This document shows, in pieces, positions 1,591 through 53,785 of a stretch of DNA of 64,000 nucleotides. The DNA is from Macrolepiota albuminosa. Taxonomy: Eukaryota; Basidiomycota; Agaricomycetes; Agaricales; Agaricaceae. How positions within the stretch are numbered: position 1 is the first letter of the stretch; each line of letters opens with the position of its first letter. The notes beneath the pieces are model-generated. The model worked only from the letters and a program-made list of their open reading frames with translations, ran no database searches and had not been told where the DNA came from. The position numbers and the translations under genes are program-made. The stretch is from NCBI GenBank assembly GCA_027475525.1, contig JAMWFC010000088.1, forward strand, positions 1,457,534-1,521,533, given 5' to 3'.

Positions 1591-1593
1591 CAT
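1591..1593. repeat. Left target-site duplication (CAT) of the giant element
   Basis: CAT directly precedes the left terminal inverted repeat. The same CAT follows the right repeat at 53783-53785. A 3-bp duplication is the hallmark length for CACTA/EnSpm transposons. Keeping one CAT rejoins the gypsy gag and pol halves in frame. Confidence 0.8.
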
Positions 1594-2233
1594 CACTTCG
1601 GGGCATGGTGGAGATTTCTGGAGAAACATCCGTTAGAAACAGGTCATGTGACTTTCAACAAGTGTTTCTCCAGAAAAACTAAAAGTATAAATTGAGAAAT
1701 AGTAAAAAAACACTTATTGTGTTTTTTGTGTGTTTTTTGAGCTATTTTTAAAAATTTTCTTTCTCTATTTCTCAAGAAATACGTGGGGAACACAAATTGT
1801 GTTTCTAGACTGTTTCTTGAAAAATATGGCACATGTATCTTTTGGTTTTTCTAAAGTTATCTTTGTAATTTTTTTATCAAATGTTTTTCAATAAACTTTC
1901 TTTGTGTTGTTTTAGAAAAATAAATTGTAAAAACATGATGTATTTCTAAAAAAAGACCGATTAGAAATTCTTTAAATGTTTCTCAAGAAAGATCAATTAG
2001 AAACACTGTTGCTGATGTATTTCTAAAAAAAGACCGATTAGAAATTCTTTAAATGTTTCTCAAGAAAGATCAATTAGAAACACTGTTGCGTAGATGAGCG
2101 TGGCGCTGATCACACGACGAGCGCATGCTGATCTTCTTTCTCATCGGTCTGGTACACTCGCGTGCAGCTAATGTAGCGATAGGCAACAATATATTGTACA
2201 TTAAATGCAATAGTAATGACAAAAGAAGGCGCT
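1594..2233 (+). repeat. Left terminal inverted repeat of the giant element
   Basis: Inverted copy of 53209-53782. By eye only about five differences occur in the outer 120 bp, and similarity is continuous to the inner boundary at AAGGCGCT. The left copy is longer because a 77-bp segment at 1937 is repeated at 2014. The repeat is very AT-rich and filled with short motifs in both orientations, such as GTTTCT and AGAAAC and the palindrome TTTCTCAAGAAA. Such arrays in CACTA elements serve as binding sites for the element's own DNA-binding protein; that role is inferred here. Confidence 0.9.
1937..2090 (+). repeat. 77-bp tandem duplication inside the left TIR
   Basis: The segment starting GATGTATTTCTAAAAAAAGA at 1937 is repeated exactly at 2014. 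The right TIR has a single copy, so the duplication is private to the left end. Its period equals that of about 40 other duplications in this window and it may be an assembly overlap. Confidence 0.85.
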
Positions 2234-2273
2234 TGTCTCCCAATACCAGAACCTTCATCACGCCCATCACGAT

Positions 2274-2975
2274 TCATCCACTATCCTCTGTATCTTCCCT
2301 GTTCACAAAGCCTCCTACCCCGCCAGAAACAATGAATCCTCCAGTAATCTGTCGATGATCCTCACTCAATTGTTCAAGCCTGTGAGACGCCAAAACAATC
2401 TTGCTCGAAGTGGTATTGATCTGGAGGCCATATGATTTCTTGAAAAGTTCTGTGACTGTGTCATACAAGATTTCCCTGCCATGGTCTTGTGTGTGCCTCT
2501 GGACAACTTCAAAGAAGGATGATCGGAAACGTCTAGGTAGCAGCAGACCCGAGGATTTGACAATGGCAGTTGAAACATCTGCCTGTCCAGAACGTGTGTT
2601 GAAACCAACACTGAGCTTCAACTCGGGAAGAACACGGTTGCCGATCGCCCTGTTGACTGCACTGAGAACGGCACAAAGACCAGAACCTGCGATGTCAGAA
2701 TCAACGCCTAAAAGTCAAAATCTTGAAATGTTTGCCTGAAAGCCATGGTGATGTCGTCTACAGTCACTTCTCATGCCTCGCAATCCGAAATTTCCTGGAT
2801 GACTTGATAAAACACAATCTGGAATTCACACGGCAGGCTGAGGTGTAGGTGTTGTTTGATAAAATACGTGATGCCACCCTTGCCAGACTGTGAGTTGACG
2901 CGGATGATGGCCTCGTAGTTCTGTCCAAAATCGGCTGGATCAAGAAGAAGTGTAGAGATGAAGGGGGGGGCATGA
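2274..2975 (-). pseudogene. 2-isopropylmalate synthase-like (LeuA) C-terminal fragments, rearranged
   Basis: LeuA condenses 2-ketoisovalerate with acetyl-CoA in leucine synthesis. About 2940-2760 translates to DPADFGQNYEAIIRVNSQSG followed by KGG, the signature at the end of the fungal LeuA catalytic domain, then a segment resembling LPRxxQxEFxxVVQ. A second frame (2750-2274) holds a piece like the C-terminal regulatory domain (SDIAGSGLCAVLSAVNRAI). It then holds another copy of the linker region, with LLLPRRF, EVVQRHTQDHGRE, TELFKKSYG and QITGGFIV. The order does not follow one normal LeuA protein: the linker occurs twice and the TIM barrel is missing. It sits just inside the left TIR and looks like captured, scrambled host sequence. 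It is not expected to be active. Confidence 0.62.
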
Positions 2976-2989
2976 GATGTATGAACTAT

Positions 2990-51017: not shown

Positions 51018-51475
51018 CATGGAGAGTGAGAGAGGGCATTTGGTCCCTTCTGAGGAGCCCTGGGGCAGCTGAGGATCGGATGAGGGAGGGGGTGATAGGG
51101 GGGAGGATGTGGACGTTGCAATGGCCAATCGCAGCCGTGCGAAACGTTTTTGATGCTCCGTTCGTCATCATGGAGGGTGAGAGAGGGCATTTGGTCCTCT
51201 CTGAGGAGCCCTGGGGCAGCTGAGGATCGGATGAGGGAGGGGGTGCATGGAGGGTGAGAGAGGGCATTTGGTCCTCTCTGAGGAGCCCTGGGGCAGCTGA
51301 GGATCGGATGAGGGAGGGGGTGATGGGGGGGGAGGATGTGGACGTTGTAATGGCCAATCGCAGCCGTGCGAAACATTTTTGACGCTCTGATCATCATCAT
51401 GGAGAGTGAGAGAGGGCATTTGGTCCTTTCTGAGGAGCCCTGGGGCAGCTGAGGATCAGATGAGGGAGGGTAAGG
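51018..51475 (+). repeat. Minisatellite, four units
   Basis: Units start at 51018, 51169, 51245 and 51400 with CATGGAGRGTGAGAGAGGGC. Full units are about 151-155 bp; the second is cut to 76 bp. Each holds GAGGAGCCCTGGGGCAGCTG and GCCAATCGCAGCCGTGCGAA. Copies differ at a few bases. The minus strand is open through most of it, but this looks like a repeat effect, not a gene. Confidence 0.88.
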
Positions 51476-52828
51476 GCCGGTCAGAGTCAATCTGCCCCGC
51501 AAAAACTAAGGATTAATACACACACATCTTTAATTTCCTGCCTTCACACCACGCAACCATCTTACATGCCTACTACCTCTCCCGTTTCGGCCTTGCTCCG
51601 CATCTGGAGCTTTACATCTCACTTGGAAAGACCAGAAATGGAGGATGAGCAGGTTAGGATTATGGATAGGTCCCGGGCCCACTGCGTCGAATATTTGCTT
51701 GTGGTTTGTTGCTGTCATTGTGCTGTTCTTTGTACTGTTCTTACAATCTCCTTTGAAAAGTCGATTGCCTTGAGCATGTTAGTACTGTAGTACTTGGTTG
51801 CAAGTAGTACTGATAGTTCTGGGGCTTTCTTGAAGTCTTAGAAAGTGACCTCTAATCCACACTGGTGCTTGATGATAAAAACTTGATGTATTGGGTGCTT
51901 CACAGAATATCAAATATCCTGATGGGCAGAAGAAGGTTCTCAATAAACTCCAGCCTAAGTAGTTCACTCCCTGGGAACCACCGAGCCTTTGTCTACCAAT
52001 AGACTTCCAATAAGAGGTGCTCAATAAACTCTAGCCTAGTTCACTCCCTGGGAACCACCGAGCCTTTGTCTACCAATAGACTTCCAATAAGAGGTGCTCA
52101 ATAAACTCTAGCCTAAGTAATTCACTCCCTGGGAACCACCGAGCCTTTGCCTATCAATTGCCTAATTATTCTCTACTCTACTTGGACTATTTATACTAAT
52201 TTCCCAGTGCACAGACCACCAGATCATATGACTTTTTACTCTTGACCTCCCAGCATTCCTGACCTAATTTGTTGTTCCATTTTCCATTTTGGTGATGCAT
52301 GTTTCAGTGCCACCATTCCATTCATCTCTTCCTTCCTCCATTCAATGCATGTTTCAGTGCCACCATTCCATTCATCTCTTCCTTCCTCCATTCAATGCAT
52401 GTGCCACCATTTCAATCATCTCTTTTGACATCCCTCCATGCTTCTTTCCCTTTCCCCTTTCAGTCATGTCAAATTGGGCATTTGTCAGATCAGATCTTGA
52501 TTTAGATCATCACAATTTGATCCCATTTCGTCACTTCTGCCAGCTCCCATGCTTCCCCTCCCCATTACAGTGGTTGGACTATTGTTGAGCTGATAGTTTG
52601 AGCTGGTCCCTGCCTGTTGTTCTGTACTATTCTGTGTATTTATTGGGATGTTTTGGAGATATATCTTTGTTGAGACTGCTACCAGGAGGCTTACAGTTTT
52701 CAGCCTTATTATTAAATGTTTATTTTGACTTCTGGTGCATGGTGTGTCCCTGACTGCTGGTACAGCGTCGTATCAGTACTCACCTGAAGGAGTCTATTAC
52801 CGAACTTTTAACGACGTTTTGCAGCTTA
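51476..52828. other. Non-coding, repeat-rich
   Basis: No gene recognised. CTCAATAAACTC...CACCGAGCC blocks recur at about 51950, 52021 and 52098 (the last pair is a 77-bp duplication). GCATGTTTCAGTGCCACCAT is repeated with period 60 (52297, 52357). The AATAAACT and pyrimidine-rich text could be an old LTR but no ends were found. Confidence 0.5.
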
Positions 52829-53209
52829 ATGATGGCTGCCATGGCATTACCTCAAGGAAAATATGTTGTTAACGGGTTTGCTATGCGTATAATCGAGTTA
52901 TGCAGCGTGTCATTGTCTATTACCACAGCATTGGCTGTCACCTACATTGTGATGCCGAATATCCTCAAAATCTTATGCCCATCGACCATGCTGAACTTCT
53001 TGTCCCCAAGCTTTGTCTTTATTTTTCTTGTTACAGCCATCTTTACGACCTTCACTGTTTACACTAGCTGCATTGCCATTCTTTCTGTTGTAATTGCTTC
53101 CCATCCCTATGTGATCATTCCCCTCGTCATCATTTTTGCATTGGCTATTCTTTCATTTTCAATGAAAGCTTTTCTTGATTTCACCTGCCGTTTAATTTTT
53201 TTTATATGA
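52829..53209 (+). CDS. Small hydrophobic membrane ORF next to the right TIR
   Basis: 126 codons from MMAAMALPQGKYVVNGFAMR to a TGA that lies at the inner edge of the TIR. Hydrophobic segments are LSITTALAVTYIVM, LSPSFVFIFLVTAIFTTFTV with YTSCIAILSVVIA, and YVIIPLVIIFALAILSFSM, so three or four membrane spans are likely. I do not recognise the family. It is weakly similar in style to the membrane remnant near the left TIR (AMAIPQG vs AMALPQG), which may be chance. Confidence 0.35.
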   Translation: MMAAMALPQGKYVVNGFAMRIIELCSVSLSITTALAVTYIVMPNILKILCPSTMLNFLSPSFVFIFLVTAIFTTFTVYTSCIAILSVVIASHPYVIIPLVIIFALAILSFSMKAFLDFTCRLIFFI

Positions 53210-53782
53210 GCGCCTTTTTTTGTCATTACTATTGCATTTCTTGTACTGCATAAACCAATATATTGTTGCCTATCGCTACATTAGCTGCATGCAAGTGTAC
53301 CAGACCGATGAGGAAGAAGATCAGCGTGTGCTCGTCATGTGATCAGCGCCACGCTTATCGACGCGACAGTGTTTCTAATTGATCTTTCTTGAGAAACATT
53401 TAAAGAATTTCTAATTGGTCTTTTTTTAAAAATACATCATGTTTTTACAATTTATTTTTCTAAAACAACACAAAGAAAGTTTATTGAAAAACATTTGATA
53501 AAAAAATTACAAAGATAACTTTAGAAAAACCAAAAGATACATGTGCCATATTTTTCAAGAAACAGTCTAGAAACACAATTTGTGTTCCCCACATATTTCT
53601 TGAGAAATAGAGAAAGAAAATTTTTAAAAATAGCTCAAGAAACACACAAAAAACACAATAAGTGTTTTTTTTACTATTTCTCAATTTATACTTTTAGTTT
53701 TTTCAGAGAAACACTTGTTGGAAGTCACATGACCTGTTTCTAACGGATGTTTCTCCAGAAATCTCCGCCATGCCCTGAAGTG
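53209..53782 (-). repeat. Right terminal inverted repeat of the giant element
   Basis: Inverted copy of 1594-2233 without the 77-bp duplication (574 bp). Read on the minus strand it begins CACTTCAGGGCATGGCGGAG, and its inner end is AAAGGCGCTC. It has the same iterated TTTCT/AGAAA motifs as the left TIR. Confidence 0.9.
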
Positions 53783-53785
53783 CAT
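53783..53785. repeat. Right target-site duplication (CAT)
   Basis: CAT follows the right TIR, matching 1591-1593. The next bases, GTAGCATTTTGGGAGGTGGT, are gypsy sequence that joins directly to GGAGACTAC on the left flank. Confidence 0.8.

Follow-up and report, generated by a model that had tools for sequence, protein, structure and literature searches.

Structure of the locus

The window examined here is a 64,000-bp stretch of the Macrolepiota albuminosa genome (assembly GCA_027475525.1, contig JAMWFC010000088.1, positions 1,457,534 to 1,521,533). Most of it, from 1594 to 53782 (52,189 bp as assembled), is a single element bounded by terminal inverted repeats (TIRs) and lying inside a gypsy element. 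In the contig naming used below this unit is C73, and all of the evidence is drawn from assembled contigs of the 100-Mb genome. When the window is compared with itself, positions 1594-2012 and 53782-53363 pair as inverted repeats with 97.1% identity over 420 bp, the similarity extending inward to 2233 on the left and to 53209 on the right. The left TIR (1594-2233, plus strand, also recognised by comparison with other loci) starts with CACTTCGGGG, and the right TIR (53209-53782, minus strand) terminates in CCTGAAGTG; these are the inverted ends of 0.57-0.64 kb described in the original prediction. The CAT duplication described there is likewise present at both outer edges, at 1591-1593 and 53783-53785, and is the target-site duplication (TSD). 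The left TIR also contains a 77-bp tandem duplication (1936-2012 and 2013-2089), which is missing from 25 of the 29 loci compared.

The left flank (745-1590, minus strand) belongs to the interrupted gypsy element and encodes a retroviral-type protease (RVP_2, PF08284, E 7.7e-5) in an open reading frame (ORF) running from 745 to 1632, in keeping with its earlier identification as gypsy pol. The right flank (53786-54485, minus strand) is the upstream part of the same gypsy element, as judged from matches that span the junction; its ORF (54006-54485) has no Pfam match, and the gag identity originally given to it is by position only. When the flanks are joined with one CAT removed, the minus strand is open across the junction through WQHHLPKCYMVV..., i.e. 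...WQHHLPKCYMVVSTPSS..., as expected of the in-frame gag/pol junction that had been proposed, but the signature is W-x3-LPKxY rather than W-x4, and there are stop codons further upstream. The joined 400 bases were used as a genome query, and of 72 candidates 40 rows were scored. Apart from two that are the halves of the window itself, every one of the remaining 38 runs across the joined site with 70-83% identity. The clear conclusion is that both flanks were once one gypsy-type element, and that they belong together as far as the assembly allows this to be judged.

Terminal motif and transposase

The palindrome TTTCTNNAGAAA occurs eight times in the 64-kb window, on every occasion within a TIR; 0.24 occurrences are expected, and none of 100 shuffles reaches eight. 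Five of the sites are on the left (1615, 1665, 1768, 1979 and 2056, covering 1615-2067, the last being in the duplicated 77 bp) and three are in the right TIR (53385, 53596 and 53750). Three other ends in the genome have four, three and three copies, all within the TIR, and there are none in 64.7 kb of the interior of the related units C106 and C53 described below. CACTA elements have a short motif repeated in their subterminal regions, which is bound by a protein, and the distribution of TTTCTNNAGAAA suits a putative transposase binding site.

The transposase gene, identified from Pfam and homology, is at 17676-20795 on the minus strand, with a tnp2/Transposase_21 region (20036-18679) followed by DUF4218 (18343-17676). 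An ORF continuing after these domains (12165-12683, minus strand, no Pfam match) is split from 17516-17677 by a copia insertion. In the C53 copy, a 489-amino acid ORF matches PF02992 (E 4.4e-4, 19.9 bits against a cut-off of 28.6) and the next ORF matches DUF4218 (E 7.9e-5). The 489-amino acid ORF has 205 protein matches among 7,997 candidates scored (best E 4.9e-147); PF02992 is found on all 120 of the homologues listed, with PF18759 beside it in seven of them. In an alignment of the C53 copy with 60 homologues, the conserved positions include C333-D334, a C(2)C motif (C353-x2-C356) and the columns D426, M428 and H429 (D-x-MH); the H(3-4)H motif and the last E were not identified in this alignment. 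Passages of PMC12730594 place the C(2)C and H(3-4)H motifs of the EnSpm/CMC group between the second D and the last E, and give fungal EnSpm elements CAC..GTG ends and a 3-bp TSD, with 2-5 bp in the wider CMCT group.

The termini found here are CACTTC or CACTTT, fitting 5'-CAC..GTG-3' (one end, in C53, is damaged), and two of the four paired units have an exact 3-bp TSD (CAT in C73, and TCT on both sides of C45). Among the Pfam-scanned ORFs (30 of the 39 window ORFs of at least 150 amino acids, and another 30 out of 150 listed from the other copies) there is no tyrosine recombinase captain, and none matches PF18758 or PF18759 (KDZ / Plavaka). Judged by its sequence the element is an EnSpm/CACTA transposon, because its family has a tnp2-type gene with the C(2)C motif and a palindrome confined to the TIRs; the CACTA type was originally proposed from the ends, and is now strengthened by what lies inside them.

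It is worth adding that a related transposase family, with about 68% DNA identity, is present in the genome, four copies having open frames of 570 amino acids (C24:314422, C73:935124, C89:1360545 and C90:3057062).

Related units elsewhere in the genome

The terminal 34 bases are found at 66 sites in the genome with at most three mismatches, against none for a reversed control pattern. Four large units have both ends paired: C73 (the window), C106 (531682-586359, 54.7 kb), C53 (about 159628-206721, 47.1 kb, inverted) and C45 (514393-552338, 37.9 kb, inverted). Other copies of the TIRs are thus not all short, those on C106, C53 and C45 bounding units of 37.9-54.7 kb, with collinear cargo in C106 and C53. 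When the flanks of C106 are joined and its AACT repeat is removed, at least 18 other loci span the join among the 40 of 1,993 candidates that were listed, and four of these are 98% identical over exactly 396 bp. For C53, all 38 of the non-self rows cross the join, and in most of them the target exceeds the query by about 30 bases, which we infer to have been lost at the C53 join.

The C106 copy (L041-L044) is collinear with the window from about 12.5 to 42.9 kb and the C53 copy (L047-L049) from 11.3 to 46.4 kb, in both cases with insertions and losses, and with 91-99% identity to the window per 2-kb block. Locus L042 of C106 is filled by a gypsy-type insertion, and window positions 20189-23765, comprising the start of the transposase and a WD40 ORF, are missing from C53. 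Four markers (the transposase, an RTC4-like gene, an RNA14-like gene and the ORF at 42-43 kb) keep the same order, all on one strand, at each of six loci: C73, C106, C53 (192-175 kb), C122 (4-25 kb) and two places on C74 (151-105 kb and 304-332 kb). In C122 the right end is at 35,335, and the start of the contig falls where the left end is expected. A second, partial copy on C53 has a left end followed by the transposase, RTC4-like and RNA14-like markers; C27 and C114 have partial copies, and on C59 there are two markers, one on each strand. The left ends have recurring sequences of their own, as do the right ends.

There are also smaller and isolated ends. Five miniature facing pairs of 178-273 bp have related CACTTCAGGGCAT ends (C73:1452305-1452510, about 5 kb upstream of the window, C6:376316-376522, C107:1561834-1562039, C86:515945-516122 and C110:3791676-3791948), and one further pair of facing ends is 2.2 kb apart. 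Two left ends on different contigs, L004 (C78:501962) and L013 (C43:955307), share the same 37-base outer flank plus AGG, which implies that the insertion locus was duplicated, or else that both insertions hit a repeat at an identical position. The ends at C47:144861 and C16:349404 have identical match statistics, and these contigs are possibly allelic or duplicated.

Size and decay of the window copy

The window copy has been interrupted by a DDE_3 (Tc1/mariner-like) element nested at 8014-9645 (minus strand), whose inverted ends are 225 bp long and which is not found in the other copies aligned here; by the copia element (12741-17514, minus strand, with gag, integrase and RVT_2), missing from loci L038, L041, L046 and L049; and by a 0.9-kb insertion at about 39083-39988, within a kinase gene and not in the other copies aligned there. 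An assembly gap of 100 N (12008-12107) corresponds to about 1.2 kb in copies L038, L046 and L049. In the window there are also 41 runs in which 50 or more bases are repeated identically exactly 77 positions further on (for example 1936-2089, 28403-28557, 57801-57954 and 63513-63668), and 38 of the 40 runs that reach 60 bases are inside the element. In 129 locus-by-run comparisons (two runs gave no data, and some places held as two loci were counted twice) the duplication is missing from the other copy in 122 and present in seven. The other copies have 77-offset runs of their own, mostly at different places (42 runs in the 192.8 kb of L031-L050). The most likely source of these exact 77-bp tandem duplications is the assembler, which would have left k=77 overlaps untrimmed; they are hence an artefact that shifts reading frames.

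Once the nested insertions, the gap and the artefacts are allowed for, the element proper is about 43 kb. Two distances agree with this size, namely 11.2-11.9 kb from the left end to the transposase marker (C106 and the second C53 copy) and 31.4 kb from that marker to the right end (C122). The 52 kb originally stated is therefore correct for the assembled sequence, but nested insertions and assembly duplications have enlarged it.

If the state found in most of three copies (window, C106 and C53) is taken as ancestral, the window has 280 private changes, 150 of which are C-to-T (or G-to-A) at CpG. Such changes affect 12.6% of 1,192 ancestral CpG bases in the window copy, 12.5% in C106 and 16.7% in C53, which suggests that the copies became methylated at CpG once they had inserted. 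Given the insertions gained and this decay, largely by CpG deamination, the window copy is probably no longer autonomous.

Cargo genes

One cargo gene resembles RNA14/CstF77 (Suf; PF05843, E 8.8e-39), with exons at 28182-28777 and 28912-29601 on the plus strand, and the best match of its protein among solved structures is CstF77. The window exon has a stop at 28936-28938, where C106 and C53 are open. There are 12 match rows for this gene, two of them on C111, which are 59% identical and resemble the host gene; these two host-like copies (C111:433966 and C111:504855) score equally and are 71 kb apart. A stretch of 220 codons, picked as open in the window and starting nine codons downstream of the window stop, was compared among seven transposon-type copies and one C111 copy. 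It is open in all eight places, the C59 copy being 88% identical, and longer open frames of 229-243 codons exist in six of the seven transposon-type copies; the C27 copy, outside the comparison, has a stop. Against C111, synonymous divergence (dS) is 0.98-1.28, nonsynonymous divergence (dN) is 0.26-0.29 and dN/dS is 0.23-0.27, and among the seven transposon-type copies dN/dS is 0.22-0.58, the top value coming from three changes only.

A separate dN/dS analysis over the ORFs of several copies was noisy, with values for most ORFs that overlap those of the off-frame and antisense controls. For the RNA14-like exons it gave 0.23-0.35 in frame against 0.32-2.19 for off-frame controls; since these controls range widely, weight is put on the comparison with C111 and more copies. 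The counts are small, and fit an old resident gene that was once under constraint and of which some copies are now decaying. With dS to the host-like copy of about 1.1, its capture, if there was one, would be old.

The RTC4-like gene (25347-26613, plus strand, two overlapping ORFs; PF14474, E 3.9e-16) is found at 13 places, with main pieces 75-100% identical and a stop in six, and none of the 13 is a clearly more distant host copy. A WD40-type ORF with weak matches (21686-22141, minus strand) is present in C106 and not in the C53 copy. On the plus strand follow two ORFs of unknown family that are common to the copies (32974-34811), a FunK1-type fungal protein kinase gene (36124-40292, PF17667), which contains the 0.9-kb insertion described above, and a large gene of unknown family (40714-43607). 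The large gene has nine homologues, the five named ones all being from Termitomyces and Tephrocybe. Structure prediction was tried for the ORF at 42-43 kb (nine homologues), but gave a mean predicted local distance difference test score (pLDDT) of 43.4. In the two homologue sets (n=9 and n=14), the closest named homologues are from Termitomyces, Tephrocybe and Blastosporella, all Lyophyllaceae. No TET/JBP gene was recognised among the ORFs scanned.

A giant EnSpm/CACTA family and its alternatives

We conclude with high confidence that the window contains a member of a multi-copy family of giant EnSpm/CACTA cut-and-paste transposons, about 43 kb in length and with resident cargo genes, and that this copy moved as one piece. 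The ends, duplications, interrupted targets, gene order, transposase homology and mutation spectrum on which this is built are direct observations, while binding to TTTCTNNAGAAA, activity of the copies and whatever function the cargo may have are inferred. In the proposed mechanism, the tnp2-type DDE transposase would most likely bind the repeated TTTCTNNAGAAA sites in the 0.6-kb TIRs and cut at the CACTT ends, and the whole unit would reinsert with a target duplication of 3 bp, or once 4 bp. The unit carries a common set of genes (the RNA14/CstF77-like, RTC4-like and FunK1-type kinase genes and several unknowns, with the WD40 ORF in some copies). The window copy jumped as a single piece into the gypsy element, later gaining the copia and other insertions and decaying largely by CpG deamination.

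A number of observations weigh against this conclusion. The direct repeat of C106 is AACT, of 4 bp and not 3 bp; C53 has no TSD and its right-type end is damaged; the interior of C45 is rearranged and filled with gypsy sequence, and its joined flanks are crossed only by two local-repeat rows, by 28 bp. Only four large units are two-ended, many of the larger ends having no partner within 60 kb, and these single ends imply that most copies are incomplete, nested or unassembled. The assembly itself contains the artefact duplications. The PF02992 and DUF4218 scores are both under the Pfam curated cut-offs, so that assignment of the transposase rests on the homology of the 489-amino acid ORF. The window transposase is broken, with stops, a frame change and an altered DPMH motif; the C53 copy has lost the start of the enzyme; and the C106 ORF has a stop and artefact duplications. 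An intact transposase is thus absent from the copies read (window, C53 and C106), out of about 15 loci that have the marker. A six-frame genome search with PF02992 found 11 places, and because the element's own gene is not among them, this number is no measure of family size.

The same structure could have been produced by two short, opposed CACTA elements that bracket ordinary host DNA and moved it once, in which case there would be no element family. Short TIR-only pairs do exist (the five of 178-273 bp), and the sequences internal to the TIRs are not the same at the two ends. However, the four internal markers, the transposase among them, recur in the same order at six loci, the left and the right ends have recurring sequences of their own, and the RNA14-like gene has diverged widely from the host-like copy. 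Recurrence largely refutes such a composite, which we consider highly improbable. It is similarly hard to believe that the locus is a chimera of misjoined repeat unitigs with no real 43-kb unit behind it. The window's 41 exact offset-77 runs, with 38 of the longer ones falling inside the element, do mark joins with untrimmed overlap, and there is an N gap, but the window's duplications are missing in 122 of 129 comparisons, so that the joins differ from copy to copy while the gene order agrees, and the flanks fit single interrupted repeats at three loci (window, C106 and C53).

A more serious alternative, although still an unlikely one, is that the unit is a dead-end derivative: a non-autonomous block, derived from a CACTA element of normal size that was recently swollen by capture of host genes and moved by the transposase of another element. 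This would account for the lack of an intact transposase in the copies read, the many single-ended or decayed copies and the stop-bearing RTC4-like and RNA14-like copies, and the genome has related CACTA transposases whose open frames are about 570 amino acids long. The RNA14-like dS of about 1.1 to the host-like copy argues, on the other hand, that any capture was old; the gene set is common to copies at different sites; and a normal-sized, transposase-only version with these TIRs was not seen, though the search was not exhaustive. At the other extreme, the family may be a basidiomycete counterpart of the Starships based on a DDE (EnSpm) transposase, that is, a giant self-mobile lineage that has long kept the RNA14/CstF77 paralogue, the kinase and the RTC4-like gene because they serve the element. 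The cargo may then, for example, change how mRNA 3' ends are processed in transcripts of the element or of the host, or counter silencing. We regard this as a speculative possibility and rather doubtful. The absence of an intact transposase and the stop in the window's RNA14-like exon lower its probability, and raise that of the dead-end derivative.

Comparison with known giant elements

With the fungal EnSpm/CACTA elements treated in passages of PMC12730594 the giant family shares an EnSpm-group transposase, CAC..GTG ends and a 3-bp TSD, but it differs in its length of about 43 kb and its resident gene set. Enlarged EnSpm elements with accessory genes have been described in algae: giant elements of 16-20 kb with 4-5 ORFs in the red alga Chondrus (as cited in part of PMC6431247), and elements of up to 15.2 kb in the brown alga Ectocarpus, where according to sections of PMC12477816 nested insertions and broken transposases are also frequent. 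The present family is more than twice as long as the giants in these excerpts, is fungal, and has RNA14/CstF77-like cargo. A soybean element, TgmR, is called a large CACTA transposon in the title of PMC4219821, at 13 kb. The KDZ giants of about 30-32 kb in Ectocarpus and Chlamydomonas (sections of PMC12477816) are similar as large TIR transposons with accessory genes, but belong to a different transposase group, the TSD of Zisupton being 8 bp (passages of PMC12730594).

Starships are the obvious comparison as giant cargo carriers in fungi. They have a tyrosine recombinase captain and are found in Pezizomycotina, with eight claimed in Tremella (in part of PMC13066641), whereas the present family combines long TIRs and a 3-bp TSD with a gene for a tnp2-type transposase. 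The suggestion that the window element is of a different kind from Starships holds for the class of enzyme, but giant EnSpm elements of 15-20 kb that carry accessory genes have already been described from red and brown algae (from the same portions of PMC6431247 and PMC12477816); the element is a larger, fungal variant of this known type. Among open-licence papers, as a rule not including preprints, no giant CACTA/EnSpm element of about 43 kb was found in fungi.

Fungal giant cargo carriers have so far mostly been tyrosine-recombinase Starships. If our interpretation is true, an ordinary DDE transposon superfamily is able to form a multi-copy cut-and-paste element of about 43 kb that carries a common gene set. 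The family also provides a clear way of testing how a resident RNA14/CstF77-like gene benefits a transposon, and genome annotations in which passenger genes of this sort are counted as host gene families would have to be revised.

Other features of the window

Inside the TIRs the element has two subterminal arms, found by self-comparison: a left arm at 5822-10595 (plus strand), which is interrupted, and its inverted copy on the right at 48399-50569 (minus strand). The left arm contains an ORF (6849-8010, minus strand), which is 386 amino acids long in the C114 copy (L031) and has no Pfam match above chance. At the other end, an ORF without Pfam match adjoins the right TIR (52754-53209, plus strand), and its DNA recurs at about 20 right ends. 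Beyond the element, the right flank includes a stretch of low G+C content (0.335) at 56001-58000.

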